A stretch of 17,051 nt of DNA from Thioalkalivibrio nitratireducens (GTDB lineage Bacteria; Pseudomonadota; Gammaproteobacteria; Ectothiorhodospirales; Ectothiorhodospiraceae), in assembly GCA_011390385.1 (NCBI GenBank), contig JAABSN010000068.1, positions 1-17,051 on the forward strand, given 5' to 3'. The notes under the pieces were generated by a model, which had not been told where the DNA came from, made no database searches, and worked only from the letters and a program-made list of their open reading frames with translations. Shown piece by piece: positions 1 to 17,051 of the stretch. The position numbers and the translations under genes are program-made. Each line of letters opens with the position of its first letter. Within the stretch, counting starts at the first letter, position 1.

Positions 1-104
1 CATTTATCCACTCCGTAAGCGCCCTGAATGTTACAGATAAAACCGATCAGGAACTGTTGGACTGGATGTTGACACACAGGGGTCGCGGTGTTGAGTCCGG
101 ATAG
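1..104 (+). CDS. C-terminal end of an unidentified protein (partial)
   Basis: An open frame enters from the left edge (first full codon at position 3) and ends at TAG 102-104. It encodes about 33 residues with ordinary composition (FIHSVSALNV... ELLDWMLTHRGRG). I do not recognise the protein. Its stop lies only a few bases before the first tRNA-derived repeat, so it may be the last gene before the accessory region or cargo of a previous unit. Because only about 100 bp are visible, the frame could be open by chance. Confidence 0.4.
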   Translation, partial: FIHSVSALNVTDKTDQELLDWMLTHRGRGVESG

Positions 105-110
105 GGCCGG

Positions 111-207
111 GGTAGGTACCCGGTTCAAGTCCTGCAGGGCCCACCATCTTATTGATTCCAATGAGTTATTCCGGGGGAGACCCATAGACCCTCGGTCGGG
201 TGGTCGC
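111..207 (+). repeat. tRNA 3'-end repeat, copy 1 (att-like)
   Basis: Positions 121-146 read as the 3' end of a tRNA: T-loop TTCAAGT, CCTGC, acceptor strand AGGGCCC, discriminator A, then CCA at 144-146. The 5' side of the T-stem is degenerate (CCCGG instead of GCAGG), so this is not part of a working tRNA gene. Similarity to copy 2 (866-967) continues beyond the CCA: TCTTATTGATTCC, then a CCATAGAC-like block and GTCGGGTGGTCG. The stretch CCGGGGGAGACCCATAGAC is nearly the same as in copy 4 (12281-12379). Partial tRNA ends repeated at intervals are the usual footprint of site-specific integration at a tRNA gene. Confidence 0.75.
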
Positions 208-220
208 ATTGGACTGGCGC

Positions 221-262
221 TTGACCTGCGTCAATCGACCCTACCGGGCCAAACGCTATTCT
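221..262 (+). promoter_or_regulatory. FNR/ANR/DNR-type promoter 1
   Basis: TTGACCTGCGTCAA (221-234) is a palindrome of the FNR-family form TTGAN6TCAA. Its centre (227.5) lies 29.5 bp before a -10-like hexamer TATTCT (257-262). That is the class II activator spacing, with the box centred at about -41.5 of a start near 269. The first gene downstream is the exported protein at 364. The box and spacing are seen in the sequence; the regulator and oxygen or NO control are inferred. Confidence 0.5.
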
Positions 263-363
263 CCTCTTGGTAGCAGCCGCAGTCATTAACTTGCGCTGAA
301 GGGGCGTGAAATCGGGCGCGGCCCAGCGTGTTTGAGACTTTTTTCTGAAAGGGGAATCGGGAT

Positions 364-834
364 ATGAACAACTCGTATCGAATTATTCTGGCGTTGATGT
401 TATGTGTGATGTCCTCAATCGCTATGGGGCAGGAAGCCAAGTGTCAGATTCATGATATGGGTCCCGACATTCCACTGATCGGACGAATAACCACCGGAGA
501 AAAGCTCCACTGCACCCTCCATCTCGACCAAAGCACGGTCAAAGATCTGGTAAACGGAGAAATCTTTGCAATAGATAATACCTGTAGCGCGCTTTCTGAA
601 GCTGTAGCTGATGCGGTGTTTGAAGACAGTCCGGACGACGTATTTACGGCAATATTCAGTGGTGTCATGACTACGGCTGTATGGGGCGTCTGCGATGCAG
701 CCATTGTGAGCGAGTTGATTATCGGCGAGGCACATTCCTGTAGTGGCGGCTATCATTTGACGATTGACGGCAAAGCGACTGTCGGGCCGCCGCCGAAAGG
801 GCATGCCAGTATCCGGGGGCAAGGCTGCCACTAG
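364..834 (+). CDS. Small exported cysteine-containing protein of unknown function
   Basis: A 156-residue protein. The N-terminus is a typical Sec signal peptide: MNNSYR, a hydrophobic core around ILALMLCVMSSIA, and a probable cut near AMG|QEA. The mature part carries six cysteines, so disulfide bonds in the periplasm or outside the cell are plausible. I recognise no domain. The start at 364 is supported by an AAAGGGGAA Shine-Dalgarno-like stretch ending about 8 bases upstream. It is the only gene between tRNA-3' copies 1 and 2, so it looks like the single cargo of a small cassette, transcribed from the FNR-like promoter at 221-262. Its base composition is more AT-rich than the R-M genes, in keeping with separate acquisition. 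Being a real gene is likely; its role is unknown. Confidence 0.7.
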   Translation: MNNSYRIILALMLCVMSSIAMGQEAKCQIHDMGPDIPLIGRITTGEKLHCTLHLDQSTVKDLVNGEIFAIDNTCSALSEAVADAVFEDSPDDVFTAIFSGVMTTAVWGVCDAAIVSELIIGEAHSCSGGYHLTIDGKATVGPPPKGHASIRGQGCH

Positions 835-865
835 TTGCTTGGCCTTTGGCAGACAGCAAGCGCCT

Positions 866-967
866 GAATCGGTAGGTCGCAGGTTCAAGTCCTGCAGGGC
901 CCACCATCTTATTGATTCCTATGGGTTTACGCCCTGCGTGACTCATAGACTTGGGGTCGGGTGGTCG
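866..967 (+). repeat. tRNA 3'-end repeat, copy 2 (att-like), best preserved
   Basis: Positions 866-906 match the 3' half of a tRNA from just after the anticodon: AATCGG, variable loop TAGGTC, T-arm GCAGG-TTCAAGT-CCTGC with a perfect 5-bp stem, acceptor strand AGGGCCC, A, CCA (904-906). The pattern AATC...GGTCGCAGGTTC is closest to tRNA-Lys as I remember it. No matching 5' half lies upstream (841-865 does not contain one), so this is a fragment and not a gene. The following 60 bp repeat copy 1. It marks the left edge of the large cassette with the ATPase and R-M genes. Confidence 0.8.
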
Positions 968-1016
968 GCTCAGAGTGGTCTGGAAGAGCCCCGCTGATCC
1001 GGCGTGCCCGTCTCGA

Positions 1017-1058
1017 TTGATCCAGGTCAAATCTCCGCTGTAGGCGCTGGCCTAATTT
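1017..1058 (+). promoter_or_regulatory. FNR/ANR/DNR-type promoter 2
   Basis: TTGATCCAGGTCAA (1017-1030) differs from the FNR consensus TTGATN4ATCAA at one position. The AT-rich hexamer TAATTT (1053-1058) starts 29.5 bp after the box centre, the same class II geometry as promoter 1. The hexamer itself is a poor -10 (three of six). The next supported gene is the ATPase at 1379, which would leave a leader of roughly 310 bases. Confidence 0.45.
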
Positions 1059-1063
1059 ACAGG

Positions 1064-1378
1064 TGGCGTCAGGCGTGGAGAAGCGGAACGGTAAGAGGGA
1101 ATAGCGGCACAAAATACGACGTAGCTAGCTCCGAATTGGATGGATCAGGCGTGTCAGCACCGCTGATTGTCCTTCATCTCTTCTGTTCCGTTCTCTATAG
1201 CCAAGAGCGCGGCTTTGTTGCGCCTTTACTGCGGCCTTTTCGATTGTCTCTCTGATGCGAAGAACCAATCGAAAGCAGAAATCTAGGTACGATGTGATCG
1301 GTGCGTCGAGGTAGCGATGAACACACAACGGCCTCAATCCGCTTAGTGATCGGAATAGGGGCAAAACAAGGTTTTGTC
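1064..1378 (+). other. Long leader or intergenic stretch with no supported gene
   Basis: About 315 bp between the FNR-like promoter and the ATPase start. I find no convincing small ORF with a ribosome binding site and no clear terminator. A minus-strand frame over 1125-1255 reads somewhat protein-like, but it has no supported start and could be a gene remnant. A decayed earlier cargo is as likely as a functional leader. Confidence 0.4.
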
Positions 1379-2782
1379 ATGACTGTAGGCGACTATGCAA
1401 AGCGACCCTCCGAAGTAAAGCGCTTGGAAAAGCTGTTAACCGAAGGGTCTGAAAACTTGTCCATTTGCTCGATTTCCGGCCCAGGAGGGGTGGGAAAAAC
1501 GTATCTGCTTGACCATGTTCTAAGCAAGCTATCGCCGCGGGCGCTCAACTACCTTACTTTGCGCGTGGATGGTTCAAATCCAGAGAAGTCTTCCGATTTT
1601 TTCGGGCTGGTGGCTGATCAGCTGGCTAAACGGAGCCTGCCTCCTCCCGCGAAGATGTCGCGCGATTATTTTCCGAACACAAGAAACATTGACGATCTCC
1701 ATAAACGACTGTTAAGCGATGTTGAAAAGGAATTAATGGACTCTGGTCTTGATCCAGAGACAAGGGCCGCAATTTTGTCCCTAGTCAAAATTGCGCATGT
1801 GTGCAATGAATGGATGCCCGTTTCGAATATTCCGGTCAAGTTGGTTCTTAGTACTATTGGAAACGAGGAAGCTGTAAAGAAGGCGCTAGATACCGTTGGC
1901 CCAATCATTGATAGCCTGATAATTAATCACCCACCAATCTTGGACCCCTTTTTCGACCTGCTTGGTGTTTCCAAGAGGAATAGGGTCAAGAAAGACTTGT
2001 ATGGAGTTACAGCAGACGCCTTTATAAAAGACGTTCAAGTCGCGATTGGTGCTCCAGGCCGGTCAAAAGTTAGCCTGACCCATCCGCCAATAAAAGGCCT
2101 GAAGCGATTGCTCATGGTCATTGATGACTATGAGGCGTTACATCCAGTAATAGGGTCTTATCTTATTGGCGCTTTAATGCCTCGTCTTTCGGAAGCCGAC
2201 TTTCAGACTGTTATGATCATTTGCTGCCGGGATGACCTTGACGCGACTGATCCTTCATGGAACCAACACCGAAAAAGTTTTTTCAAGGAAGATATTCGGC
2301 TGATGCCTTTTTCGGAAGACGCCGCAAAGAGCCTTATGAGTGAAGCAGGTGTGCCGCCTGAACAACAAGACGGAATCTACAGCGCTACTTCAGGATTTCC
2401 ATTCCTGCTGACCCTTGCCATTGAGGAGATCACGACTACTGCCGGCGGATCTGCGCTTTTCGCCAAGAAGTTCTACGACAGAACATCTCGATGGATGAAT
2501 GGCCGTCAAAGGGAATGGTTCAATAGGGTTTGTTATCTTGACGAAGTCAACGAGGATTCGCTTTCGGTTTTTTTCGAGGAACATCAAGTCTCAGGCGTTC
2601 AGAATTGGTTCGAAGGTGAGGCATCTATCCGTGACCCCGACAGCCCCACATTTAGTGTACGACCAGTTATCAGAAACAAAACGCTGGAGTACATGAAGCT
2701 CCGCTCACCGAGGCTGCATGAGGAGAGGCAAGAAACGGCGAAGAGACATGGGCATATGAGTAGCATCAAGGACGGAAGGTGA
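1379..2782 (+). CDS. Stand-alone STAND (NACHT/NB-ARC-like) ATPase
   Basis: A 467-residue P-loop ATPase if translation begins at ATG 1379; an upstream ATG at 1301 would add 26 residues that do not look conserved. An ACAAGG stretch sits about 8 bases before 1379. Walker A is GPGGVGKT (residues 34-41). Walker B is LLMVIDDYE (about 243-251). A sensor-like strand VMIICCRDD follows, then GFPFLL (339-344), matching the GxP motif of STAND ATPases, and a winged-helix-like C-terminus. The Walker A to Walker B gap (about 200 residues) is long for the family. STAND ATPases often serve as phage sensors with a fused effector and repeat sensor. Here neither an N-terminal effector nor C-terminal repeats are present, so it may need a partner or act as a regulator. 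It lies between a tRNA-3' repeat and the R-M operon and is less GC-rich than hsdM. ATPase class is confident; the defence role is inferred from context. Confidence 0.75.
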   Translation: MTVGDYAKRPSEVKRLEKLLTEGSENLSICSISGPGGVGKTYLLDHVLSKLSPRALNYLTLRVDGSNPEKSSDFFGLVADQLAKRSLPPPAKMSRDYFPNTRNIDDLHKRLLSDVEKELMDSGLDPETRAAILSLVKIAHVCNEWMPVSNIPVKLVLSTIGNEEAVKKALDTVGPIIDSLIINHPPILDPFFDLLGVSKRNRVKKDLYGVTADAFIKDVQVAIGAPGRSKVSLTHPPIKGLKRLLMVIDDYEALHPVIGSYLIGALMPRLSEADFQTVMIICCRDDLDATDPSWNQHRKSFFKEDIRLMPFSEDAAKSLMSEAGVPPEQQDGIYSATSGFPFLLTLAIEEITTTAGGSALFAKKFYDRTSRWMNGRQREWFNRVCYLDEVNEDSLSVFFEEHQVSGVQNWFEGEASIRDPDSPTFSVRPVIRNKTLEYMKLRSPRLHEERQETAKRHGHMSSIKDGR

Positions 2783-2947
2783 GCCTCCTAGCGCTGGAGG
2801 ATACCTAGCTGAGAGGGCCCCAGGTTCTAAGCCGGAGCTAACGATCGTGTCGTAGGGCGACGAGCGAAAATGCGGGGTCGTGTTTCGTGCATGCCTTCTG
2901 GCGGCCTGCGATGCGGCCATCCCGCGTTCGGCTCCCCACCCCCACAC

Positions 2948-2990
2948 TTGACCCAAATCAACCACGCCCCCTCCCGCTACCCGCTAGACT
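2948..2990 (+). promoter_or_regulatory. FNR/ANR/DNR-type promoter 3, upstream of hsdM
   Basis: TTGACCCAAATCAA (2948-2961) matches nine of the ten defined positions of TTGATN4ATCAA. A -10-like TAGACT (2985-2990) starts 30.5 bp after the box centre, giving a start near 2997 with the box at about -42: class II geometry. Start to hsdM ATG is about 40 bases. CTAGACTCT recurs at 3012-3020 in an imperfect tandem copy of about 28 bp (2984-3011 and 3012-3039), so a second -10-like TAGACT lies at 3013-3018. This is the only promoter candidate I see for the R-M operon. Confidence 0.5.
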
Positions 2991-3035
2991 CTCCGGGGTT
3001 GCTGGCTGAATCTAGACTCTGGGGGTCTTTCTGGC

Positions 3036-5057
3036 ATGAGCGCTGATATCAAGCATCTGGGCTCGTTCGTCTGGTCCATCGCGGAGCTGCTGCGGGGCGA
3101 TTTCAAGCAGTCGGAGTACGGCAAGATCATCCTGCCGTTCGTGGTGCTGCGGCGGCTGGACTGCATTCTGGCCGAGTCCAAGCCTGCGGTGCTGGAGCAG
3201 GCGGCGGCGCTGTCTGACGACATCGACGAGGAGGCCCGGGACATGCTGCTGTCCGGGGTGGTCGGCAAGAACATCAAGCTCTACAACCTGTCGCGCTTCA
3301 CCTTTGCCACCCTCAAGGGCCAGGACGCCAAGGACATCCACAAGAATCTGGTCGAGTACATCACCAAATTCTCAAGTAATGTCCGGGACATCTTCCTCGA
3401 CAAGTTCCTGTTCACCGACCAGCTCAAGCGCCTGAACGACGCCGGGCTGCTGTATACGGTGTTCGAACGGTTCACCGAGATCGACCTGCACCCCGACGCC
3501 ATCTCCAACCTCGGGATGGGCTACCTGTTCGAGGAACTCATTCGCCGCTTCTCCGAAATCTCCAATGAAACCGCTGGAGAGCACTACACCCCGCGCGAGG
3601 TCATCCGGCTCATCGTCTCGCTGCTGCTGATCAACGACCGGGATGCACTGACCGGCACGGGCGTCATCCGTCAGGTCTACGACCCGGCGGCTGGCACCGG
3701 CGGCATGCTGTCCATCGCCGAGATGGAGATGAAGGCGCTCAACGAGCGGATCCGGGTCGAGCTGTTCGGACAGGAGCTCAACCCCGAATCCTTCGCCATC
3801 TGCAAGTCCGACATGCTGGTCACCGGGCACAACCCCGAGAACATCGCATTCGGCAACACGCTCACCCAGGACGCCCACAAGGACAAGCGCTTCCACTACA
3901 TGCTGTCCAATCCGCCCTACGGGGTGGACTGGAAGAAGTACGCCGACGACATCAAGACCGAGGCGGCAGAGCAAGGCATGGCGGGTCGCTTCGGCGCAGG
4001 CCTACCCCGCATCTCAGACGGACAACTGCTGTTCCTGCAGCACATGATTTCCAAGATGCGCGACGACGAACAGGGCTCGCGCATCGGCATCGTCATGAAC
4101 GGCTCGCCGCTGTTTACCGGTGGGGCCGGCTCGGGCGAGAGTGAAATCCGCCGCTGGATGCTGGAGAACGACTGGGTCGAGGCCATTATCGCGCTGCCCA
4201 CCGACCTGTTCTACAACACCGGCATCCAGACCTATGTCTGGCTGCTGACCAACCGCAAGGACGCCGAGCGTCGCGGCAAGGTCCAGTTGATCGACGCCAG
4301 CGGTGAGCGCTTCTGGAAGTCCATGCGCAAATCGTTGGGCTCCAAGCGCCGCGAAATCCCGCCCGAAGCCTGCGACGAGATCGCCCGCATCTATGCCGAG
4401 ATGCTGAATGGTGATGGAGAGTGGGGAGACGTCTCGAAGATCTTCGCCACCACCGACTTCGGCTACCGCGAAATCCGCGTCGAGCGGCCGTTGAAGCTCG
4501 CCTTTGCTGTCACGCCCGAAGGCCTGGCAGCCCTGCGCGAGGCCAAGCCATTCCAGAAGCTCGATCCGGACGAGCAGGCCCGTCTGCTGGACGCCTTGCA
4601 GGACCACCTCCCCGCTGAGCAGCGCTGGATGGCCCGGGATGCGTTCGAGAAGGTGCTGTCGGCCGCACTCCGTCGGGCAGGCATCAAGCTGGGTGCGCCA
4701 TTGAAGAAGGCCATCCTGTCCGCACTGTCCGAGCGTGATGAAGCGGCCAAAGTCTGCACCGACAAACACGGCAACCCGGAACCCGAAACCGACCTGCGCG
4801 ATCACGAACTGGTGCCGCTGAACGAGGACTGGCGCGACTACGTCCAGCGCGAAGTGCTGCCCTTCGTCCCCGACGCCTGGGTGGACGAGAGCTACACCGA
4901 TGCGCAGGATGGCCAGGTCGGGCGCGTCGGCTACGAGATCAACTTCAACCGCTACTTCTACCAGTACGTCCCGCCGCGGCCGCTGGCGGAGATTGATGCG
5001 GAGTTGAAGGCGCTGGAGGCGGAGATTGCGGGCTTGTTGCGGGAGGTGGTGGAGTGA
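3036..5057 (+). CDS. hsdM: Type I restriction-modification system, methyltransferase subunit HsdM
   Basis: A 673-residue N6-adenine methyltransferase subunit of a type I R-M enzyme. The N-terminal helical domain opens with the family's usual run (SVxW-like region, LLRGDFKQSEYGKIILPFVVLRRL). The S-adenosylmethionine motif is DPAAGTGG (residues 216-223) and the catalytic NPPY is at 292-295. The protein is longer than the roughly 530-residue E. coli K-12 type, with an added C-terminal region (about 450-673). It ends in a charged amphipathic helix, IDAELKALEAEIAGLLRE, of the kind that packs on HsdS. A GGGGG Shine-Dalgarno-like run lies 11 bases before ATG 3036. Normally hsdM is directly followed by hsdS. 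Here about 1.2 kb with an Abi gene intervenes, and the last 67 bp of hsdM are repeated just before hsdS. Confidence 0.95.
   Translation: MSADIKHLGSFVWSIAELLRGDFKQSEYGKIILPFVVLRRLDCILAESKPAVLEQAAALSDDIDEEARDMLLSGVVGKNIKLYNLSRFTFATLKGQDAKDIHKNLVEYITKFSSNVRDIFLDKFLFTDQLKRLNDAGLLYTVFERFTEIDLHPDAISNLGMGYLFEELIRRFSEISNETAGEHYTPREVIRLIVSLLLINDRDALTGTGVIRQVYDPAAGTGGMLSIAEMEMKALNERIRVELFGQELNPESFAICKSDMLVTGHNPENIAFGNTLTQDAHKDKRFHYMLSNPPYGVDWKKYADDIKTEAAEQGMAGRFGAGLPRISDGQLLFLQHMISKMRDDEQGSRIGIVMNGSPLFTGGAGSGESEIRRWMLENDWVEAIIALPTDLFYNTGIQTYVWLLTNRKDAERRGKVQLIDASGERFWKSMRKSLGSKRREIPPEACDEIARIYAEMLNGDGEWGDVSKIFATTDFGYREIRVERPLKLAFAVTPEGLAALREAKPFQKLDPDEQARLLDALQDHLPAEQRWMARDAFEKVLSAALRRAGIKLGAPLKKAILSALSERDEAAKVCTDKHGNPEPETDLRDHELVPLNEDWRDYVQREVLPFVPDAWVDESYTDAQDGQVGRVGYEINFNRYFYQYVPPRPLAEIDAELKALEAEIAGLLREVVE
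4991..5057 (+). repeat. Direct repeat A: 3' end of hsdM
   Basis: These 67 bp, the end of hsdM including its stop, recur at 6176-6242 with five mismatches (4994, 5003, 5012, 5033, 5037). All five are synonymous in the hsdM frame. The repeat contains the GGGAGG Shine-Dalgarno and the GTGA stop/start junction that at the second copy initiates hsdS. The two copies bracket the Abi gene and its upstream RNA region. Confidence 0.9.
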
Positions 5058-5087
5058 GGCAGCCCTCGAGCCATCGTGCAGCGACGC

Positions 5088-5117
5088 TTGCGCCCCTCAA
5101 GGGGGATATCGTATACT
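5088..5117 (+). promoter_or_regulatory. Candidate promoter for the RNA upstream of the Abi gene
   Basis: TATACT (5112-5117) is a near-consensus -10 box (five of six). TTGCGC (5088-5093), with an 18-bp spacer, is a weak -35. The predicted start is near 5124, exactly at the 5' side of the RNA stem described next. A CCCC-TCAA-GGGG palindrome lies inside the spacer region and could be an operator. Confidence 0.45.
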
Positions 5118-5123
5118 TTCGGG

Positions 5124-5195
5124 TAACAAGACCCGCCACGCCTCGGACGGAACCTCGGTTTCGCACTGCGCACCCGGCGGGTTACTTGTTTCTGG
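5124..5195 (+). ncRNA. Probable structured RNA in front of the AbiF/AbiD-family gene (antitoxin-RNA candidate)
   Basis: The 181-bp gap between hsdM and the Abi gene contains a foldable segment. ACCCGCC (5131-5137) pairs with GGCGGGT (5176-5182). After a two-base TA bulge, AACAAG (5125-5130) pairs with CTTGTT (5185-5190), giving 13 pairs. Inside the closed loop, GGAAC (5149-5153) and GTTTC (5158-5162) form a hairpin with loop CTCG. A competing pairing joins AGACCC (5129-5134) to GGGTCT (5195-5200), ahead of a T-run at 5203-5207, so the 3' end may switch between folds or act as a terminator. Structured RNAs upstream of abiF-type genes are known (Rfam abiF motif) and have been described as antitoxins to these HEPN proteins. 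Identity with that motif is inferred from position and pairing only. Confidence 0.5.
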
Positions 5196-5238
5196 GGTCT
5201 GGGTTTTTGCGGTTTTGTCGACCCGTGTGGGACGCCGC

Positions 5239-6150
5239 ATGAAATTTGAAAAGCCCTCCGCTTCCATTCGTGATCAGCTTGAACTGCTCAAACGCCGCGG
5301 GCTGATCATCGCCGATGAGGCGCGAGCAGCGCAATACCTGAGTTTCATCTCCTATTATAGGCTCAGGGCATACTGGTTGCCCTTCGAAGTGCCGACCCCC
5401 CGGGATGGCGACCATGCCTTGCGTGAGGGGACAACATTCGAGGATGTGCTGTCCCTCTATGTCTTCGACCGCGAGCTGCGGCTACTGACTCTGGATGCCA
5501 TCGAGCGGATCGAGGTTGCCTTGCGCGCGCAGTGGGCACACCACATGGCGATCCGGCACGGCCCCCACGGCTACCTCGATCAAAAGCACTATGCTCATAT
5601 CGAACGTCATGCCACCGCCGTTGCCCAGTTGCAAAACGAGTTCACGCGCTCGAAAGATACCTTCGCGGTCCACTATCGCAAAAAGTACACCTCGCCCAGT
5701 CTGCCACCTGTCTGGATGGCCGCCGAGTTGATGTCGTTCGGCTTGCTGTCCAAGTGGTACGGTGATCTGAAGCACCGGGCCGATCGGCGGGCGATTAGCA
5801 GGCGCTTTGGGCTGGATGATAAAGTGCTGAAGTCTGTTGCCCATCACATCAGCCATGTGCGAAACATCGGCGCCCACCACGCCAGGCTGTGGAACAAGCG
5901 CTTCACCGTGACCATGATGGTGCCACGGCGCCCGTCGACCCTCGCCGACGCCATGTGGGCTGCCAGGCCGCACTACATTTACAACACCCTGGTCATGCTC
6001 GATTATCTGCTGTCGCGGATTGCACCCGGCAGTGAATGGAAACAACGCCTCGTCGCATTGATCGACAGCTGTCCACTGGCCGATTCTGCCCAGATGGGCT
6101 TTCCAGCCGACTGGCGGAGGCGTTCGTTCTGGAACGGGGCGACTTCATGA
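5239..6150 (+). CDS. AbiF/AbiD-family (Abi_2) abortive-infection protein with HEPN motif
   Basis: A 303-residue protein from ATG 5239 with the hallmarks of the Abi_2 / COG4823 family. These are an N-terminal YLSFISYYRLRAYWLPF block (about residues 33-49), a central FDRELRLLTLDAIERIEVALR helix, and a C-terminal RNIGAHHARLWN block. In the last, R208-X4-H213 is the R-X4-6-H motif of HEPN ribonucleases. Such proteins are expected to cleave RNA and arrest growth on infection. An open frame continues upstream to 5026, but only the 5239 start gives the family N-terminus. The ribosome binding site is weak (GGGA). The gene sits between hsdM and hsdS, has its own candidate promoter and RNA in front, and its stop overlaps the ATG of the next mini-ORF by 4 bp (6147-6150). 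Family call is confident. RNase activity and control by the upstream RNA are inferred. Confidence 0.85.
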   Translation: MKFEKPSASIRDQLELLKRRGLIIADEARAAQYLSFISYYRLRAYWLPFEVPTPRDGDHALREGTTFEDVLSLYVFDRELRLLTLDAIERIEVALRAQWAHHMAIRHGPHGYLDQKHYAHIERHATAVAQLQNEFTRSKDTFAVHYRKKYTSPSLPPVWMAAELMSFGLLSKWYGDLKHRADRRAISRRFGLDDKVLKSVAHHISHVRNIGAHHARLWNKRFTVTMMVPRRPSTLADAMWAARPHYIYNTLVMLDYLLSRIAPGSEWKQRLVALIDSCPLADSAQMGFPADWRRRSFWNGATS

Positions 6151-6242
6151 GCACGACGACACGCCAGCGGAAATCGATCGATGCGGAATTGAAGGCACTG
6201 GAGGCGGAGATTGCGGGGTTGCTGCGGGAGGTGGTGGAGTGA
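6147..6242 (+). CDS. 31-residue microprotein duplicating the HsdM C-terminal helix
   Basis: ATG 6147 overlaps the Abi stop (ATGA), and the frame runs 31 codons to TGA 6240-6242, which overlaps the GTG start of hsdS (GTGA). Ten new residues (MSTTTRQRKS) are followed by the last 21 residues of HsdM, identical in protein sequence. The DNA of the duplicated part differs from hsdM at five sites, all synonymous. It also supplies hsdS with its Shine-Dalgarno GGGAGG (6226-6231, 7 bases before GTG). It may be a translational relay that keeps hsdS coupled. The peptide itself may also act, for example by docking where the HsdM tail meets HsdS. Coding capacity and conservation are seen; function is not known. 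Confidence 0.55.
   Translation: MSTTTRQRKSIDAELKALEAEIAGLLREVVE
6176..6242 (+). repeat. Direct repeat B: second copy of the hsdM 3' end
   Basis: Partner of 4991-5057, 62 of 67 bases identical. Its right end is the GTGA junction with hsdS. Its left end is embedded in the 31-codon mini-ORF after the Abi gene. This layout suggests that an ancestral hsdM-GTGA-hsdS junction was preserved at the right when the Abi module was inserted, while the hsdM end was restored at the left. Confidence 0.9.
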
Positions 6243-7498
6243 ACTGTAAGATCGGGTCACTTAAATACGCCCTCAACGGTGTCTACTCCGGTGGTACACC
6301 TACGGCGGGTGATGACTCGTTGTATGACGACGGCGGCATTCCGTTCGTGACGATTGGTGATATGAGTTCCCAAACGCCAATAATCTCGACCAAGCGCCAC
6401 CTATCCGAAGGCGGGTGCCAATCTAAAAACCTAAAGACTGTACAGAAGGGAACTATCCTTTTGTCGATGTACGCCACGATCGGGCTCCCTAACATTCTCG
6501 GAATTGACGCCTGCATAAGTCAGGCGATCATCGCGCTATTCAGTCGCAGGGATCAGAATCCCCGGTTTCTGTATTGGTGGCTGATGCACTACCGCGGATT
6601 TCTCGAAGCAGAAGTGGCCGGCTCGACCCAAGGAAATTTGAATGCAGAGCGTGTAAAGAATATCCGGTTCATATTCATTGATATCGCAACCCAACGCCAG
6701 CTTGCCGACTTTCTGGACCGTGAGACCGCAAGAATCGACCTGCTGATCGAGAAAAAGCAGCGGTTGGTGGCGCTGCTGGGGGAGAAGGTAAGACGTTATG
6801 TTTCATCGATATTCGAAAGACTAGCGCACGAAAATCGGATATGGCGTCTGAAACATGTCTTGCTCGCCGGATTGGCATATGGCGCCAACGAACCATCTGA
6901 CGGCGACGACCCAGACGATGTTCGCTATATTCGCATCACTGACATCGATCCAGACGGAAACCTGCGTGATGACACCTTTAAGAGTCTCCCGCGTGAGCGC
7001 ATCCGTGACTACATCCTAGAAGATGGCGACATTCTGTTTGCTCGGAGCGGTGCAACCGTTGGCAAGTCCTTCATCTACAGAGAGCACATGGGCGAGTGCT
7101 GTTATGCTGGTTACCTCATTCGCGCCCGCGTCAACACAAAACTCATCTCTCAAGACTTCCTGAAGCACTTCACGTCAACCGATCAATACTGGAATCATAT
7201 CCTTGGAACGAACATTCAGGCGACAATCCAGAATGTGAGTGCGGAGAAATACGCAAACCTTGCATTTCCATTGCCGCCACTAAGCGTTCAAAGAGAAATC
7301 TCTGCAAGGGTAATGAGAAACGAGGAACGTTATGCCGCAACAAAGAGTAGGGTGAATGCCTCCATCGACCGCCTTAAAGAATACCGCTCCGCCCTGATCA
7401 CCGCCGCCGTCACTGGCCAGATCGATGTTCAGGCCTACGCCCGATCCGGCACCACCGACCGCCGCCTTGATGCCATTCAAGAGGAGATGAACGCATGA
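6239..7498 (+). CDS. hsdS: Type I restriction-modification system, specificity subunit HsdS
   Basis: A 419-residue specificity subunit that determines the target sequence for both methylation and cleavage. It has the usual two half-sites. TRD1 spans roughly residues 1-150 (GGTPTAGDDSLYDDGGIPFVTIGDM) and ends with the first conserved helix region, TQRQLADFLDRETARIDLLI. TRD2 (about 200-350) has YIRITDID, DILFARSGATVGKS and LPPLSVQREI, followed by the second helix and AALITAAVTGQI-type tail (ALITAAVTGQIDV). Start is GTG 6239, overlapping the mini-ORF stop, with GGGAGG 7 bases upstream. The gene is visibly less GC-rich than hsdM and hsdR, normal for the exchangeable recognition domains. Its stop overlaps the next gene (ATGA, 7495-7498). 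The recognition sequence cannot be predicted from the text. Confidence 0.93.
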   Translation: MNCKIGSLKYALNGVYSGGTPTAGDDSLYDDGGIPFVTIGDMSSQTPIISTKRHLSEGGCQSKNLKTVQKGTILLSMYATIGLPNILGIDACISQAIIALFSRRDQNPRFLYWWLMHYRGFLEAEVAGSTQGNLNAERVKNIRFIFIDIATQRQLADFLDRETARIDLLIEKKQRLVALLGEKVRRYVSSIFERLAHENRIWRLKHVLLAGLAYGANEPSDGDDPDDVRYIRITDIDPDGNLRDDTFKSLPRERIRDYILEDGDILFARSGATVGKSFIYREHMGECCYAGYLIRARVNTKLISQDFLKHFTSTDQYWNHILGTNIQATIQNVSAEKYANLAFPLPPLSVQREISARVMRNEERYAATKSRVNASIDRLKEYRSALITAAVTGQIDVQAYARSGTTDRRLDAIQEEMNA

Positions 7499-8547
7499 AG
7501 CGTCTCTGGAAAGTCGTTCATGGAAAGTATGGTCAATATGAGGTAGAAGCGCTTCAAGAAAGCATCCTGTTGATCGACTTCAGGATCACCGCAGATATTT
7601 CCCATGCGAAGGATCGAGAGGCGCTAACCGAGATTCTGAGAGAGGCGTTCCCGGAAGCAAAGCCCAAAACAATCTCGAACTTCGCTGCTCAAGTGAATCA
7701 GTTCGTCAATGTCATGCAGCCCGATGATCTGGTGATCTGCCCGATCAAGACGTCCAGCACCATCGCAATCGGTCGAATCACCGGTCCCTACAAGCCGCAT
7801 CCGGAGTCGGGCTGGCCCACGCGACCCGTGCAGTGGCTGAAAACAGACTTGCCGCGTGACACCTTCAAGCAAGACCTGCTCTACAGCTTCGGAGCGTTCA
7901 ACACAGTCTGCGAGATAAGCCGGAACAATGCGGTTGCAAGGGTGGAGAGCGTCCTGCAGAGCGGCAAGGATCCTGGCTTTGGGGCCAAGCCTAGCGCGAC
8001 TCGGCCGAGCAGTACTTCCGAACCCTCTGGGGAAGTCGAGCCCAGCGAAGAAATCCTCGATCTGGACCAGATTGCCCGAGACCAGATCGAGCAGCGCATC
8101 GCTTCGGTCTTCACCGGCCACGACCTGACCAATCTGGTTGCCGCGATCCTGCGTGCCCAGGGGATGAAGGTTCGGGTTTCTCCGCCCGGAGCAGACGGCG
8201 GTATCGATCTGGTTGCAGGCAGTGGGCCATTGGGTCTGGAGAGTCCGAGGATTGTCGGGCAAGTCAAATCCGGCGAGTACCAGATTCAGGATCCGGACCT
8301 GAAGAGTCTGATCGGCAATATTCAGGAGACACACGCCGACTCCGGCTTGCTCGTCAGCTGGAATGGATTCACCGCACCGGTGCGCAAGCGGGTGAACGAA
8401 CTATATTTCCGAGTCCGTCTGTGGGGCCGACAGGAGATCATCGAGAGTCTGTTTGCGGTCTATGACCAACTTCCGGAAGAGATCATGGCCGAGCTGCCGT
8501 TGAAACGAACCTGGACGCTGGTGCCCGAGGATCTCGATGCGGTATGA
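7495..8547 (+). CDS. Mrr-like restriction endonuclease with an added N-terminal domain
   Basis: A 350-residue protein. Residues about 195-330 are an Mrr-type PD-(D/E)XK nuclease: GADGGID with D238, and QVK at 256-258 (GGID...QVK is the Mrr_cat signature). Residues 1-150 form a separate domain with VICPIKTSSTIAIGRITGPY and a later VQWL strand. This resembles the domains placed before type IV nucleases, possibly a PUA/EVE-like reader of modified bases. A Ser/Pro/Glu-rich linker (about 165-190) joins the two. The gene overlaps both hsdS and hsdR by 4 bp (ATGA), so it is fully integrated in the type I operon although it is not a core subunit. A plausible role is cutting modified foreign DNA that type I enzymes miss, or DNA damage control; both are inferred. 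Nuclease family is confident, the reader domain is not. Confidence 0.82.
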   Translation: MKRLWKVVHGKYGQYEVEALQESILLIDFRITADISHAKDREALTEILREAFPEAKPKTISNFAAQVNQFVNVMQPDDLVICPIKTSSTIAIGRITGPYKPHPESGWPTRPVQWLKTDLPRDTFKQDLLYSFGAFNTVCEISRNNAVARVESVLQSGKDPGFGAKPSATRPSSTSEPSGEVEPSEEILDLDQIARDQIEQRIASVFTGHDLTNLVAAILRAQGMKVRVSPPGADGGIDLVAGSGPLGLESPRIVGQVKSGEYQIQDPDLKSLIGNIQETHADSGLLVSWNGFTAPVRKRVNELYFRVRLWGRQEIIESLFAVYDQLPEEIMAELPLKRTWTLVPEDLDAV

Positions 8548-11516
8548 GTGAGTCGCGACACACCACTGCCGACATCCACCAGGAAAAGGTCTTTGAGGCC
8601 CATATCGTTGCCTGTCTGACCGCCAGGCAGGGCTACATCGAGCGGGACTGTGCCGCTCATTACGATGTGGCCCATGCACTCGACACCGAACTGCTGTTCC
8701 GCTTCCTGAAGACCACTCAACCCGAGGCCTGGCAGACACTGGAGGAGCACTACAGCGCGCAGGCCGAAGCCGAGGTGTTGAAGCGCCTGGAGCAGGCGTT
8801 GAAGCAGCATCCGACCCATGTCGTGCTGCGCGAGGGCATCAAGCTGGTGCCCAACATCCGCTTCGCGCTGTGTTTCTTCAAACCCGCGTCGAACCTGAAC
8901 CCGGAGCTCACCCGGCTGTACGAGACCAACCTGCTGTCTGTGATGCGTCAGGTGACGTATTCGGCGAAGAACAAGAACGCCATCGATCTGGTGACCTTCG
9001 TCAACGGCATTCCGGTGGCCACCTTCGAGGTCAAGAACCCGCTCACCGGACAAAACATCCGCCATGCCGAGAAGCAGTACCGTAAGGACCGCTCCCCGGC
9101 CGGCGAGCCGCTGCTGACCTTCAAGCGCGGAGCCATCGTGCATTTCGCGGTCGATCCGGACAACGTGTCGATGACCACCCGGCTGCGCAATGGCAAGACG
9201 GTGTTCCTGCCGTTCAACCGGGGTCGCGAAGGCGGGGCGGGCAACCCGGATGTGTTGGATGAGAACCGGGTGGCCTATCTCTACAAGAATCTCCCCGGCG
9301 AGAAGGCGGCGCTGTCGCGTGAGGTGCTGCTGGACCTGATCGGCCGGTTCATCCACCTGGAGCGCAACGACGGCCAGGAGACGCTGATCTTCCCGCGCTA
9401 CCAGCAACTGGACGCGGTGCGCAAGTTATTGGCCGATGCGCGATCGAAGGGTGCGGGGCAGAACTATCTGATCCAGCACAGCGCCGGTTCGGGCAAGTCC
9501 AACACCATCGCCTGGACCGCGCACCAGATCATCAACCTGCACGACGAGGACGATCGGCCGCTGTTCGATACTGCCATCATCGTCACCGACCGGCTGGTGC
9601 TGGACCGCCAGTTGCAGAGCACGATCGGCGGGTTCGCCCAGACCGAGGGCGTGGTGAAGAAGATCGACGGCACCTCGCGCGATCTGAAGGACGCGATCCT
9701 GAAGGGCGCGCGGATCATCATCACCACCATCCAGAAGTTCGGCACCGAGCATCTGGCGACGATTTCCGGGCAGTCCGGCAAGAACTTCGCGGTGGTCATC
9801 GACGAGGCCCATTCCTCTCAGTCCGGCAAAGCCGCCCAGGCGATGACCGATGCGCTGACTCGCGATGCGGTGGGCTCCGAGGACATCGAGGATCTGGTAC
9901 TGGCCTTCCAGAACGCGCGCGGACCGCAGAAGAATATCTCCTTCCTGGCGTTCACCGCCACTCCGCGAAACGTCACGCTGGAGCGCTTTGGCCGTATCGG
10001 TGACGATGGATTGCCTCACCCCTTCCACCTGTACTCGATGCGCCAGGCGATCGAGGAAGGCTTCATCGTCGATGTGCTGCAGAACTACACCAGCTACGAG
10101 GCCTACTATCAGCTGGAAAAAGCGATCGAGGACGATCCGGCCTTCAAGGGCCGACGCGCCCAGGCTCGGGTCGCCCGCTTCGCCTCGCTGCACCCGACCG
10201 CCATTGATCAGAAGGTGGAAGTCATCGTCGAGCACTTCCGCCGTCATGTCGCACGGGAGCTAAATGGGCAGGCCAAGGCGATGGTCGTGACCCAGAGCCG
10301 GGAGCACGCGCTGCGCTACTGGCAGCATCTGAATGCCTACATCGAGCAAAACGGCTACCAGGGCTTGCGGGCGCTGGTCGCGTTTTCCGGGGAGCTGGAG
10401 ATCGACGGCAACAGCTGGACCGAGGCCGCCGCCAATGGTTTCTCGGAGCAAGAACTGCCACGGCGCTTCGATGGCGAGGAATACCAGATTCTGGTGGTGG
10501 CCGAGAAGTACCAGACCGGCTTCGACCAGCCCAAGCTGGTGGCGATGTATGTGGACAAGAAGCTGGCCGGCTTGCAGGCCGTCCAGACGCTATCCCGCCT
10601 GAATCGGCGCTTCGGCCACAACCAGCCGACTTATGTGCTCGATTTCCGCAATTCCATCGAGGACATCAAGGAAGCCTTCCGGCCCTACTACGAAGTGACC
10701 GCGCTGGAGGAGCGCACCGACCTGAACCAGATCTACGACCTCGAGCAGCGCCTGATGGGCATGGGCTACCTGCACAAGGACGAGATCGAGCGCTTTGCCG
10801 AGCGCTTCTTCAAGGGCGGACTGGACAATTACGACCGCGTTGCGCTGGAAGGACTGGTGAAGCTCTGCGTCGCGCGATTCGTGCAGGATGAAGACGAGGC
10901 CCAGCAGGAGGAGTTCCGGCAACTGTTGCGCAGCTACCAGCGCTTCTACTCGTTCGTGGCTCAGGTCGTTCGCTTACAGGACAGCTGGCTGGAGAAGCTG
11001 TTTACCTACTCGTCCTGGCTAGGGCGTCTGCTGCCCTCCCGCGTTATCCCGCCCGAAATCAGTGTCAGCGATGACATGCTCGAGCTCTCGGCCTTCCGTC
11101 TGCAATCGACCGAATCCGGCAGCGCGTCACTGAAGGTCGGGGAGACCCGCGGTCTGGACCCGATTACGGAATTCGGCGCTAATCCGTACACGGAAGAGGA
11201 AGAAAAGTCACTGTCGGAAATCATAGAATCCTTCAACGAACGCCATGGCACCAGTTTCAGCCGCGAGGACTTCCTGCGCTTCGAGCGCGTCAACCGAGAA
11301 ATCGTCGATGACGAGATGCAGGAAATGCTACGCAACAACCCCGCCGACGTCGTCTACAACACCTTCGCCCAAGCGTTCTTCCAGGGCATGGTGAAACTGT
11401 TCCAGCAAGACAACGCAATGCGCAACATCGTGATGACCGATGGCGATGCTCGAGAGCAGGCAACACGGCATTTCTTTAGAAGGGCGCAGCGGCAGGCGAA
11501 TGAGGGATCAACATGA
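8544..11516 (+). CDS. hsdR: Type I restriction-modification system, endonuclease/translocase subunit HsdR
   Basis: A 990-residue restriction subunit. The N-terminal nuclease has D148 and E162-V-K164 (AIDLVTF...ATFEVKNP), the PD-(D/E)XK site. The superfamily 2 motor follows: Walker A SAGSGKS (313-319), DEAH box (420-423), FTATPR motif III (470-475) and motif VI QTLSRLNRR (from residue 681). The C-terminal part is the helical region that holds HsdR to the methylase core. All catalytic residues are present, so the protein should translocate and cut unmethylated DNA. It is the last R-M gene, with start ATG 8544 overlapping the Mrr-like gene. Its length is usual for the family. Confidence 0.95.
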   Translation: MSESRHTTADIHQEKVFEAHIVACLTARQGYIERDCAAHYDVAHALDTELLFRFLKTTQPEAWQTLEEHYSAQAEAEVLKRLEQALKQHPTHVVLREGIKLVPNIRFALCFFKPASNLNPELTRLYETNLLSVMRQVTYSAKNKNAIDLVTFVNGIPVATFEVKNPLTGQNIRHAEKQYRKDRSPAGEPLLTFKRGAIVHFAVDPDNVSMTTRLRNGKTVFLPFNRGREGGAGNPDVLDENRVAYLYKNLPGEKAALSREVLLDLIGRFIHLERNDGQETLIFPRYQQLDAVRKLLADARSKGAGQNYLIQHSAGSGKSNTIAWTAHQIINLHDEDDRPLFDTAIIVTDRLVLDRQLQSTIGGFAQTEGVVKKIDGTSRDLKDAILKGARIIITTIQKFGTEHLATISGQSGKNFAVVIDEAHSSQSGKAAQAMTDALTRDAVGSEDIEDLVLAFQNARGPQKNISFLAFTATPRNVTLERFGRIGDDGLPHPFHLYSMRQAIEEGFIVDVLQNYTSYEAYYQLEKAIEDDPAFKGRRAQARVARFASLHPTAIDQKVEVIVEHFRRHVARELNGQAKAMVVTQSREHALRYWQHLNAYIEQNGYQGLRALVAFSGELEIDGNSWTEAAANGFSEQELPRRFDGEEYQILVVAEKYQTGFDQPKLVAMYVDKKLAGLQAVQTLSRLNRRFGHNQPTYVLDFRNSIEDIKEAFRPYYEVTALEERTDLNQIYDLEQRLMGMGYLHKDEIERFAERFFKGGLDNYDRVALEGLVKLCVARFVQDEDEAQQEEFRQLLRSYQRFYSFVAQVVRLQDSWLEKLFTYSSWLGRLLPSRVIPPEISVSDDMLELSAFRLQSTESGSASLKVGETRGLDPITEFGANPYTEEEEKSLSEIIESFNERHGTSFSREDFLRFERVNREIVDDEMQEMLRNNPADVVYNTFAQAFFQGMVKLFQQDNAMRNIVMTDGDAREQATRHFFRRAQRQANEGST

Positions 11517-11543
11517 GTTCACTTATTTGAGGGAGCAAACGAC

Positions 11544-11957
11544 GTGCGTAGATTGTTTGTTCGTGGGCTGATCCTGATGCTGATCGGCCTCACAGCACCC
11601 GCCATGACATCCGAAAAATGCGGAAATTGGCTGAGTGAGGACTTCTTCAAGACAGCCGACATCAGCGCGGTAAGGGAATGCGTGGCAGACATGAAGTCAC
11701 TATCCGCGCGGGATGACGAGGGGCGAACGCCACTTCACCTTGCGGTCAAGGCCAGTCAAGATGTTTCGGTGATACTGGAACTGCTTCGGCTCGGCGCGGA
11801 TGTATCCCTTCTGGACGCATCTGGGCGGAGTGTGATCCATGATGCTGCAGAACATTCGACAGTTCCCGAGGTCATCCCCTTGTTGGAGAACCGGGGTCAG
11901 GTCGTGCTTCGTGCACGTTTCACGGACTGCGCTCCGGATACTTCGCGCGCGGTTTGA
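11544..11957 (+). CDS. Short exported ankyrin-repeat protein, probably cut short at its 3' end
   Basis: A 137-residue frame from GTG 11544, with a GAGGGA Shine-Dalgarno at 11529-11534. The first 20 residues are a signal peptide (LFVRGLILMLIGLTAPAMT). Residues about 55-115 are two ankyrin-like units: DDEGRTPLHLAV...LLRLGADVSLLD and ASGRSVIHDAA...VIPLLENRG. The last 20 residues lose the repeat pattern and read as non-family sequence. The gene therefore looks truncated near 11900, where it enters the repeat-rich right border of the island. It follows hsdR by 27 bp and could be co-transcribed. Exported ankyrin proteins sometimes act as inhibitors or immunity proteins, but nothing here shows a partner. 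Confidence 0.6.
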   Translation: MRRLFVRGLILMLIGLTAPAMTSEKCGNWLSEDFFKTADISAVRECVADMKSLSARDDEGRTPLHLAVKASQDVSVILELLRLGADVSLLDASGRSVIHDAAEHSTVPEVIPLLENRGQVVLRARFTDCAPDTSRAV

Positions 11958-12151
11958 CTCGCGGCCGATCTGCCGGATTGACAACAGCGCCTCGAGACCG
12001 TTGCGCTCGACCCGGTTCAAGAATCTGAGAGAGGGACCGCCTCGCTTGTTTTCACCGACTTCCCTGTTCTGAACGGTCACAAGGCTGGTTCAGTACCGCG
12101 GCAAATACCGCCTGATTCACGTGCACCTTTTCGCGCGCGAATCGAGTCTTT
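11958..12151 (+). other. Border sequence without a supported gene
   Basis: About 190 bp between the ankyrin gene and tRNA-3' copy 3. A minus-strand frame is open through it but is joined to tRNA antisense sequence and has no recognisable protein. GACCCGGTTCAAG near 12009 faintly resembles the T-arm region of copy 1 but soon diverges. Confidence 0.35.
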
Positions 12152-12187
12152 ATCGGCAGTCGCAGGTCGAAGTCCTGCAGGGCCCAC
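12152..12187 (+). repeat. tRNA 3'-end repeat, copy 3 (degenerate)
   Basis: ATCGGCAG, then CGCAGGTCGAAGTCCTGCAG, then GGCCCAC follow the same tRNA 3' segment as copy 2 with few changes. The T-stem GCAGG/CCTGC is kept and the T-loop is altered (TCGAAGT). Similarity stops before CCA, where an IS630-like fragment begins. There is no downstream extension as in copies 1, 2 and 4. Confidence 0.65.
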
Positions 12188-12256
12188 TGATCGGGCGTCT
12201 TGTCGATCAACATTCGCTGCAGACTGGCTTCCTGTTCGGAAAAAAGGGAACGCAGA
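12187..12256 (-). pseudogene. Fragment of an IS630-type transposase (N-terminal piece)
   Basis: The minus strand reads LFSEQEASLQRMLIDKTPDQ and then runs straight into tRNA antisense sequence. EQE...IDKTPDQ resembles the motif preceding the LWTRxAV helix-turn-helix segment of IS630-family transposases; that segment is missing. No inverted ends or catalytic DDE region are present, so this is a scrap left by earlier insertion and rearrangement. The short length limits confidence. Confidence 0.35.
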
Positions 12257-12614
12257 CACCCAACTCCAACATGCCTGGCTGAAACCGGGCAGGTCGCAGG
12301 CTCATGCCCTGCAGGGCCGAACATCTTGTTGAATCTTCTGGGTGTATCCGGGGGTGACCCATAGACTCTCGGTCGCATGCAAACGATGGGTGTCCGAGAC
12401 TCGCATCCGATGGGAGCGCAATATCGCAGGATTTCATGAAGAAATTGATCTGCCCGTTCTGATCGCTGAGCCAGGTATCGAGCAGGGGTTCGAAGAGGAA
12501 TGTCGGCGATTCGCTCGCGATCGCACTTGCACTCGAAAGCAAGAGCACGCCGGCCACAGTAGCGCAACGCCACCGGTGCCTGACTCGAACCAAAAGCCGA
12601 AATGGATGATTCAT
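12207..12614 (-). pseudogene. Secreted protein gene truncated by the right-border repeat
   Basis: From ATG 12614 (GGAG 9 bases upstream; an alternative ATG at 12629 lacks a site) the product starts MNHPFRLLVRVRHRWR. A signal peptide core CATVAGVLLLSSASAIA follows, with a cut near AIA|SES, then about 45 ordinary residues. From about residue 78 the frame runs into repeat copy 4, and further on into repeat antisense and transposase scrap, to a stop at 12207. The original 3' end is therefore missing. It lies 45 bp after the preceding secreted gene on the same strand and was probably third in that operon. I recognise no family. Confidence 0.5.
12281..12379 (+). repeat. tRNA 3'-end repeat, copy 4 (att-like, right border)
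   Basis: GCAGG-CTCATGC-CCTGC keeps the T-stem but has a changed loop. GCAGGGCCGAACATCTTGTTGA parallels the GCAGGGCCCACCATCTTATTGA of copies 1 and 2 (longer matches are at 12311-12332). The downstream part CCGGGGGTGACCCATAGAC and CTCGGTCG nearly equals copy 1 (170-197). It interrupts a minus-strand host gene, so it marks the right edge of the inserted DNA. Confidence 0.7.
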
Positions 12615-12658
12615 GTCGTTGATCTCCATTCAGCCAGCATAACCAGGCATCAACCGCA

Positions 12659-12982
12659 TCAAGACGACAAGCCCGATGATTCAAAACCATCCTTGAAGAG
12701 AATATCCGACTGCCCGGCCGGGGTCCAGAACCCGCCTCGGAGCGTGAATTCTCCGCCCGAAGACCCGCCAGCATCCGGCTGACCGACGGTGCCCTGCAGG
12801 AAGAACGCATCGCCGATGGAAGCCGCACCGCCTCCATCGATGGTCGAGCGCCGGATCTTGAACTCACCGCCGGCGGGCTGCGTTCTCTCTTGCGCGGCAA
12901 GACCAACCCCTGCAAGGCCCATGAGCGCCAGCACCGCGCCGGCGACCCAGCGCCTCCGATGCCGGGGCATCAGCCTGTTCAT
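12659..12982 (-). CDS. Small secreted protein with DGFE-type C-terminus
   Basis: A 107-residue protein from ATG 12982, whose start overlaps the stop of the S74 gene (ATGA). The N-terminus has a basic stretch (MPRHRRRW) and a hydrophobic segment (VAGAVLALMGLAGVGLAA), a clear signal peptide. The mature part repeats a theme: GGEFKIRRSTIDGGGA, then GDAFFLQGTVGQPDAG, then GGEFTLRGGFWTPA. It ends with ILFKDGFESSG, a tail common on secreted proteins of some gammaproteobacteria. Translation is probably coupled to the large surface protein, suggesting a shared export or surface role; the function is unknown. Confidence 0.75.
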   Translation of the reverse strand: MNRLMPRHRRRWVAGAVLALMGLAGVGLAAQERTQPAGGEFKIRRSTIDGGGAASIGDAFFLQGTVGQPDAGGSSGGEFTLRGGFWTPAGQSDILFKDGFESSGLSS

Positions 12983-16705: not shown

Positions 16706-17051
16706 TGACGCGGCGAAGCCGATCGCATTGAATCCAGGGGCGCGCTGAATCACATCATGGCGCGAGGCAATTCTCGGTCCGAGATCTTTCTTATCGAGAA
16801 CCAACGTTGGCACCCATAGGGCCAGGTAGTTTCAACGCTCGGCATCCCTGGCCGGCACGAGCGGGGAGACAGTGCCCGGTCGCATCGAAATCGACTTCCG
16901 GGTCACGCTACCGATCAGGTATTCTGCAGTCCGATTGGATCGAGGAGCTCAGCACACTGCTGTCCCATAAACGTTCATGCGAACGCCAATTCCCTCTGAG
17001 GGCTCGGTGGTTCGGGTTTTGGCGGGCCGGTATCGAATAGCTCCATCAGCG
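16706..17051 (+). other. No supported feature
   Basis: About 345 bp after the membrane-protein gene. A 77-codon plus-strand frame (16807-17040) exists but has low-complexity, Arg/Ser/Trp-rich composition and no ribosome binding site. No terminator or RNA was recognised. Confidence 0.4.

Follow-up and report, generated by a model that had tools for sequence, protein, structure and literature searches.

How can a restriction operon accommodate a toxin gene while its specificity gene continues to be translated, and why should the end of the methyltransferase gene in front of it recur behind it? Both questions are raised by a locus of Thioalkalivibrio nitratireducens, in which an abiF-type RNA and an abi gene lie between hsdM and hsdS of a type I restriction-modification (R-M) operon. 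The window analysed here is the whole stretch of 17,051 nucleotides (nt) formed by positions 1-17,051 of the forward strand of contig JAABSN010000068.1. Our answer, which we hold to be probable, is that an intact, RNA-controlled AbiF module sits at the hsdM-hsdS overlap and that the second copy of the hsdM end is a recombination scar kept as the ribosome-binding site of hsdS. Embedding as such is already known and not new, Abi2/AbiF/AbiD genes in R-M operons being listed in a survey of HEPN proteins from 2013 (PMC3710099 Table 1). A first-pass annotation of this DNA had recognised the RNA-like segment and the Abi_2/HEPN gene between hsdM and hsdS, confirmed here by matches to Abi_2 and RF03085, as well as the last 67 bp of hsdM on both sides of the insert, and its view that an AbiF-type HEPN module is embedded, together with a structured RNA, in a type I operon is supported. 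Of its interpretation, the embedded RNA-toxin module, the empty sites and the recurrent linkage stand, whereas the repeat as a part of the insertion design is not supported.

All genes of the operon are on the plus strand. The hsdM gene (3036..5057) encodes a type I methyltransferase subunit of 673 amino acids (aa; Pfam N6_Mtase 2.9e-56, HsdM_N 1.1e-22) and is followed by a hairpin of the abiF RNA type (5123..5191), by abi (5239..6150), which encodes an AbiF/AbiD-type Abi_2 HEPN protein of 303 aa, and by the specificity gene hsdS (6239..7498; 419 aa, Methylase_S 2.4e-26). The direct repeat (4991-5057 and 6176-6242) is identical at 62 of 67 positions, and a blastn search of the DNA further downstream with the hsdM end as query gave E = 1.9e-24. 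Its left copy is the true 3' end of hsdM; the right copy (plus strand, matched by a profile of hsdM tails at an independent E-value of 5.4e-12) is in frame and closes an open reading frame (ORF) of 31 codons, running from ATG 6147 to TGA 6242, which we call the relay ORF. It overlaps the abi stop (ATGA) at one end and the hsdS start (GTGA, 6239-6242) at the other, by 4 nt each, and its product consists of ten residues, MSTTTRQRKS, joined to a 21-residue HsdM tail. That the right copy ends in GTGA and carries GGGAGG (6226-6231) had been seen before; overlooked were the in-frame ORF and the fact that all five differences between the copies are synonymous in the hsdM frame. The chance of five synonymous differences out of five is 0.0009, or 0.0018 with transitions weighted, and the pattern is that expected of two hsdM alleles.

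For comparison, 113 confirmed HsdM relatives (best identity 88%) were available, of which the best 80 were kept as comparison loci (L numbers). RNA and Abi lie between hsdM and hsdS in 12 of the 80, among which L042-L044 are near copies of one another; these 12 and the window itself are the 13 Abi loci referred to below. Loci are termed Abi-less where tblastn gave no match to the window Abi at 1e-4, a threshold that a very distant Abi could escape. The hsdM ends were readable in 77 of the 80 loci and, with the odd ends of L065 and L069 dropped, 12 Abi and 63 Abi-less loci were compared. Of the 63 Abi-less loci, 58 have an ORF of 250 aa or more that opens on the hsdM stop (38 GTG, 17 ATG, 3 TTG); the exceptions are L009, L027, L050, L052 and L079, the overlapping ORFs of L052 and L079 having 216 aa. 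Empty sites with a single stop-start overlap, which the first-pass annotation had proposed to look for, are therefore present, and so are other inserts between hsdM and hsdS, namely a RhuM gene in L026 and a 75-aa ORF in L027. At none of the 13 Abi loci does an ORF of at least 250 aa open at the hsdM stop; there the Abi stop opens the next ORF, which is an hsdS of 427-668 aa in 11 loci, the 31-codon relay ORF in the window and an ORF of 40 codons, ending in an hsdM tail, in L026. On the HsdM tree the Abi label needs seven changes, at least five of them forced by starred branches (quick method, with support from the Shimodaira-Hasegawa-like approximate likelihood ratio test, SH-aLRT, only), and the site was therefore filled or emptied several times.

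In EcoKI, hsdM and hsdS are described as translationally coupled (PMC3510504). In the 20 nt before the hsdS start of the 58 Abi-less loci, predicted pairing with the anti-Shine-Dalgarno sequence had a median of -13.3 kcal/mol, compared with -3.1 kcal/mol for random 20-mers of hsdM. The hsdS genes of Abi loci no longer use the ribosome-binding site in the hsdM end. Among 12 Abi loci (with L123 included and the near copies L043 and L044 omitted), ten have an Abi 3' end that itself offers -9.8 to -12.0 kcal/mol; weak Abi ends were found in the window (-5.4 kcal/mol) and L026 (-5.6 kcal/mol), where the tail copies supply -14.8 and -9.8 kcal/mol, respectively. In the window the value belongs to the GGGAGG Shine-Dalgarno core at 6226..6231, within the right copy on the plus strand. 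A weak Abi end thus coincides with a tail copy in two of two cases as against none of ten, the ten being related to each other, and judging from these predicted strengths the tail copy is probably the ribosome-binding site of hsdS in the window.

Copies of hsdM tails recur beyond the window. When the 6 kb behind each hsdM end were scanned with a profile built from 76 hsdM tails (best value of the reversed control 0.97), five copies were detected: in L027 (3.8e-13), in the window (5.4e-12), twice in L026 (1.8e-7 and 0.0034) and in L008 (1.1e-5); a weak sixth match in L065 (0.074) was left uncounted. Four of the matches run right up to a stop codon; the second of L026 stops two residues short of one. 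Each of the two tail copies in L026 is preceded by an HsdS-like N-terminus (MSHKPYPAYKPS...) and overlaps the next ORF at its start, the first fusion lying before the RhuM gene and the second before an ORF of 146 aa that matches nothing in Pfam. The hsdM end copied in L027 is broken and lies between the 75-aa ORF, likewise without a Pfam match, and hsdS. The simplest common cause of these scars is recombination between hsd loci, by which an hsdM tail and the gene downstream of it are joined elsewhere.

Two of these loci deserve a remark of their own. The two successive fusions of L026 (5686-7451) read as a layered insertion record, and the Abi-less L008 (8629-8760) shows an hsdM tail scar of 29 nt followed by a second copy of the hsdS 5' end. 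DNA searches started from each hsdM end returned further short and weak matches in L033, L034, L045 and L060 (E 1.6e-4 to 5.4e-4, 21-31 nt), which were taken as chance.

The predicted toxin gene is intact. The window Abi matches Pfam Abi_2 (PF07751) over the full profile (E = 1.1e-56, 192.4 bits, cut-off 25.6) and PADLOC AbiD (1.2e-71); Abi_2 is the single Pfam domain found, an ABC-NTPase part being absent from the matches. The residues R208, N209 and H213 of the HEPN RNase motif R-N-x3-H are intact, and invariant in 14 of 14 aligned proteins. A sequence search of the PDB at E <= 10 returned one chain, the Abi family protein 8vz6 (E = 2e-51), and an AlphaFold2 model of the window Abi (predicted local distance difference test, pLDDT, 84.3) matched 8vz6_A, the PbAbiF dimer with its non-coding RNA, with a template modelling (TM) score of 0.84 and E 1.4e-17, the next structural match being at E 0.46. 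R208 and H213 align within the RN-x3-H segment of PbAbiF, whose R210 and H215 are named in PMC12373285. In six pairs of relatives, none of which includes the window, the ratio of nonsynonymous to synonymous substitution rates (dN/dS) of Abi was 0.04-0.14, a sign that Abi relatives are under purifying selection. Toxicity and phage protection would be expected of a protein of the AbiF kind, and the window gene is a predicted toxin.

The RNA in front of it was recognised by RF03085 (abiF RNA) at 5132-5182 with 28.3 bits, below the gathering score of 37 and with E = 0.0051 in a search of 501 bases; a scan of the whole window with Rfam at gathering scores gave no match. On 11 short loci of related Abis the same model scored 29.7-32.2 bits in ten, again below 37, and found no match in L103, and in a set of 20 loci it passed gathering only in L172 (50 bits) and L110 (49.5 bits), both solo. 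In the Abi clade to which the window belongs the apical stem of the RNA is longer, in embedded and solo copies alike, and this is why the score of the window falls below gathering. When the structure was assigned by hand on 15 distinct sequences, 91% of cells of the hairpin were paired, compared with 30-50% with the partners slid, and five pairs had changed on both sides. A covariance model built from these sequences, with the window row included, gave 86.2 bits at 5123-5191; at E <= 1 it matched the window and 12 of 12 Abi-bearing hsdM loci and none of 68 others, of which three (L021, L025, L074) end inside or at hsdM. As the 12 loci and the window are model rows or near copies of such, these matches show where the RNA lies, not the independence of the model. 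One RNA match was found at the window module, not the array of two or more by which type III toxin-antitoxin systems are recognised. By analogy with AbiF-AbiFr the hairpin is a candidate AbiFr-like antitoxin RNA, which may neutralise AbiF by binding. No plus-strand terminator was found in a scan of the window module, and no promoter was reported by the scan upstream of the RNA; a weak possible promoter of the RNA-abi module, TTGCGC-18 nt-TATACT (5088..5117, plus strand), is readable there by eye alone. An unusual arrangement is seen in L152, a locus of the layout hsdM-abi-X-hsdS with an extra gene, where two abiF RNA model matches lie near one abi start (5938-6152, minus strand); RCd22 likewise has two motifs.

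The module appears to be portable. From 413 plasmid records with an Abi match, 16 were opened by choice and not at random, and of these five had Abi in type I operons, one beside type III genes and ten elsewhere. Close Abi relatives are found in different layouts: plasmids of Nitratireductor and Thioclava show the order hsdM-hsdS-abi-GIY-YIG-hsdR, that of Actibacterium the same layout with a short hypothetical gene replacing GIY-YIG, a Pseudomonadaceae plasmid hsdM-abi-hsdS-hsdR, and in Acetobacter abi follows hsdS. In genomes sampled by taxon, Abi (E <= 1e-30) was found in 18 of 394 genomes from the family of the L004 genome (G001), six of the 18 in type I operons, and in 28 of 369 genomes from the class of the L027 genome (G009), where hsd neighbours were seen at seven of 31 Abi places and type III genes at two, several contigs ending near abi and the neighbour-detecting profiles having been built from few seeds. 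In the alphaproteobacterial class of the L061 genome (G006) 12 of 385 genomes carried Abi, and none of the 12 places (11 regions, the centre genome aside) was beside hsdM or hsdS, a weak Mod match (18 bits) occurring in L185; the link between abi and hsd genes is therefore not general. The samples around G001 and G006 include a centre genome chosen for carrying Abi.

On the Abi tree (85 rows, fragments below 180 bits omitted) the window falls into a group (SH-aLRT 99) with four hsdM-hsdS-abi-hsdR copies and a single solo copy, not among the other hsdM-abi-hsdS loci, and the four HsdM nearest to that of the window by path on the HsdM tree come from Abi-less loci. From these trees we infer that Abi did not move together with hsdM. 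At 14 of the 19 embedded loci measured, ten after hsdM and four after hsdS, the RNA stem lies exactly 71 nt from the upstream stop; the distance is 74 nt in the window and 87-117 nt in L026, L085, L087 and L147. The 71-nt point may be the left border of the module. The 71-nt loci are L004, L012, L031, L042, L054, L061, L063, L068, L078, L123, L081, L082, L083 and L120, and three solo copies (L084, L089, L121) have no stop codon at the 71-nt position.

As for the origin of the repeat, the first-pass annotation had assumed that the insertion of abi itself made or carried the 67 bp, sparing both hsdM and its coupling to hsdS. The repeat does bracket the module exactly in the window, the Abi locus L026 has a similar one (76 nt, 89%), and L027 kept its tail copy before hsdS with another ORF in between. 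However, 11 of the 13 Abi loci have no second tail, tail scars occur in the Abi-less L008 and L027, and the tail copy of L026 lies behind an HsdS-like N-terminus, so that the tail was probably joined to an hsdS 5' end already in place; we therefore consider this origin improbable. A peptide function of the relay ORF, whose product could, as an unattached C-terminal helix of HsdM, compete with HsdM for HsdS and thereby adjust the assembly of the methyltransferase, would agree with the 21-residue tail being identical in protein despite five synonymous changes and with the EcoKI model, in which the HsdM C terminus is close to the HsdS N terminus (PMC3510504). Yet divergence inside hsdM genes before the joining explains the synonymous pattern as well, the N-terminal parts of the short ORFs of the window and L026 look unrelated by eye, and L008 retains just 14 tail residues, which makes such a function very unlikely. 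Several points also speak against a scar kept for ribosome binding. The right copy may be a simple local duplication that afterwards changed synonymously; no donor locus with the exact junction was found among the loci compared, and, apart from the left end of the window with its five mismatches, no hsdM end of the set differs from the right copy at fewer than ten positions. Of 78 hsdM ends (including the window, L065 and L069), 39 are closer to the right copy and 21 to the left, with 18 ties, so that no donor can be named. No origin was found for the ten residues in front of the HsdM tail, the association of weak Abi ends with tail copies rests on two loci, and a decayed ribosome-binding site in the hsdM end of Abi loci was not seen, its strength equalling that of Abi-less loci (p = 0.51). 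For the RNA, the measure "further pair types", one of five shuffle measures, was not above shuffles (467 of 500 reached it), and the fold of the single sequence was no better than shuffles (z -1.02).

With regard to function, a decayed passenger without conserved linkage, which the first-pass annotation had named as the finding that would speak against its view, is not what the locus shows. That its Abi 3' end differs from those of relatives is the one point in favour of decay, nothing further having been found; the gene is full-length with RNxxxH intact, the relatives show the low dN/dS given above, and the linkage recurs in 12 of 80 loci, which leaves this reading hardly credible. A much more serious alternative, which we rate somewhat below an even chance, is that abi acts as a defence gene in its own right, settles in hsd operons much as it does in other defence islands and is functionally unlinked to restriction. 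It agrees with 56 of 85 Abi tree rows being labelled solo, outside hsd operons, and with abi being found before, between and after hsd genes. Against it stands that the Abi stop takes over the start overlap in 13 of 13 hsdM-abi loci, and expression is therefore at least likely to be tied to the operon; the constant 71-nt spacing at 14 of the 19 measured loci, moreover, suggests constraint or precise transfer. Since this alternative concerns function, it is compatible with the anatomy of the embedded module and its scar, and the likelihoods we attach to the two are not shares of one whole.

In the preferred reading of an embedded module with a kept scar, an AbiFr-like RNA and the AbiF HEPN RNase, probably under its control, sit at the hsdM-hsdS stop-start overlap. 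In the order of events that we infer for the window, recombination between hsd loci would have joined an hsdM tail and the gene behind it to the sequence downstream of abi, and the right copy would have been kept because its codons contain both the ribosome-binding site and the start overlap of hsdS. Ribosomes ending AbiF could then restart on the relay ORF and subsequently on hsdS. AbiF would be held inactive by its own RNA, and a shortfall of this RNA, as the presumed trigger, would let it cleave RNA and so halt the infected cell, as a backup to restriction. For the guard suggested in the first-pass annotation PrrC is a precedent, and such a role is plausible by analogy. It is a more speculative and rather unlikely extension that AbiFr-AbiF serves type I R-M operons specifically, as a guard or addiction cassette which enters stop-start overlaps, with hsdM tails as portable restart modules. 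If so, HsdS would be made only from messenger RNA that also makes toxin and RNA, and the toxin would be freed when the R-M message or complex is lost or shut off. The hsdM tails would keep the chain of translation unbroken when hsdS is exchanged. Such a cassette would be the R-M equivalent of PrrC, or of CreTA, the addiction module of CRISPR-Cas (PMC12737573).

Known systems resemble the window module in part. AbiF-AbiFr (PDB 8vz6; AbiFCd-RCd22, PMC12373285), described as a type III system with cleavage of single-stranded RNA (PMC12737573), likewise has an Abi_2 HEPN protein of the same fold preceded by an abiF RNA, and RCd22 neutralises AbiFCd in C. difficile (PMC12373285); the window module differs in lying inside an hsd operon, in one RNA motif instead of the two of RCd22, in the longer apical stem and in the lack of a plus-strand terminator in the scan. 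The R-M-embedded Abi2/AbiF/AbiD genes of PMC3710099 are of the same family and kind of neighbourhood, whereas the abiF RNA, the stop-start takeover and the hsdM-tail relay found here are not described in the accessible portion of that account. PrrC of the EcoprrI type Ic locus is also a HEPN RNase gene in a type I operon and acts as a second line when restriction is blocked, but it has an ABC-NTPase part and is described as held by its R-M system (PMC3710099), while the window Abi has no such part and has an RNA partner. Type I operons are known to contain further nested defence genes (PMC11411939, PMC12255303, PMC12707154); DarTG2 and TgvAB (PMC12255303, PMC11411939) are, like the window abi, nested between hsd genes, but are different genes at different positions (DarTG2 between hsdS and hsdR), and no hsdM-tail copy is described for them in what was accessible of these papers. 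In the literature searched, which did not extend to bioRxiv and most subscription journals and was partly accessible, no description was found of an hsdM-tail copy beside an embedded abi, of the stop-start takeover or of the ribosome-binding role. The occupied and empty sites bear sequence-level signs of how a toxin threads into a restriction operon and leaves translation of the specificity gene unbroken, and the recurrent hsdM-tail scars are a readable trace of the exchange of hsdS and neighbouring defence genes, by which the question whether an embedded AbiF guards restriction becomes directly testable.

The remainder of the operon is complete, with hsdM, hsdS and hsdR in order on the same strand. 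The window HsdS has 84% identity to a Tropicibacter HsdS across 69% of HsdS length, and hsdR (8544..11516, plus strand) encodes a restriction subunit of 990 aa (NCBIfam hsdR 201.5 bits, below the cut-off of 284.55). Between hsdS and hsdR a Mrr-type endonuclease gene (7495..8547, plus strand; PADLOC PDC-S02) forms a second embedded gene, homologues of which were found in eight of the 80 relatives (L008, L031, L032, L033, L039, L058, L064, L066). Upstream of hsdM lies an ATPase-like gene (1301-2782) with weak AAA/NB-ARC matches below the Pfam cut-offs, and on the minus strand at 12979-15414 an ORF of 811 aa combines YadA head repeats with a Peptidase_S74 chaperone domain.

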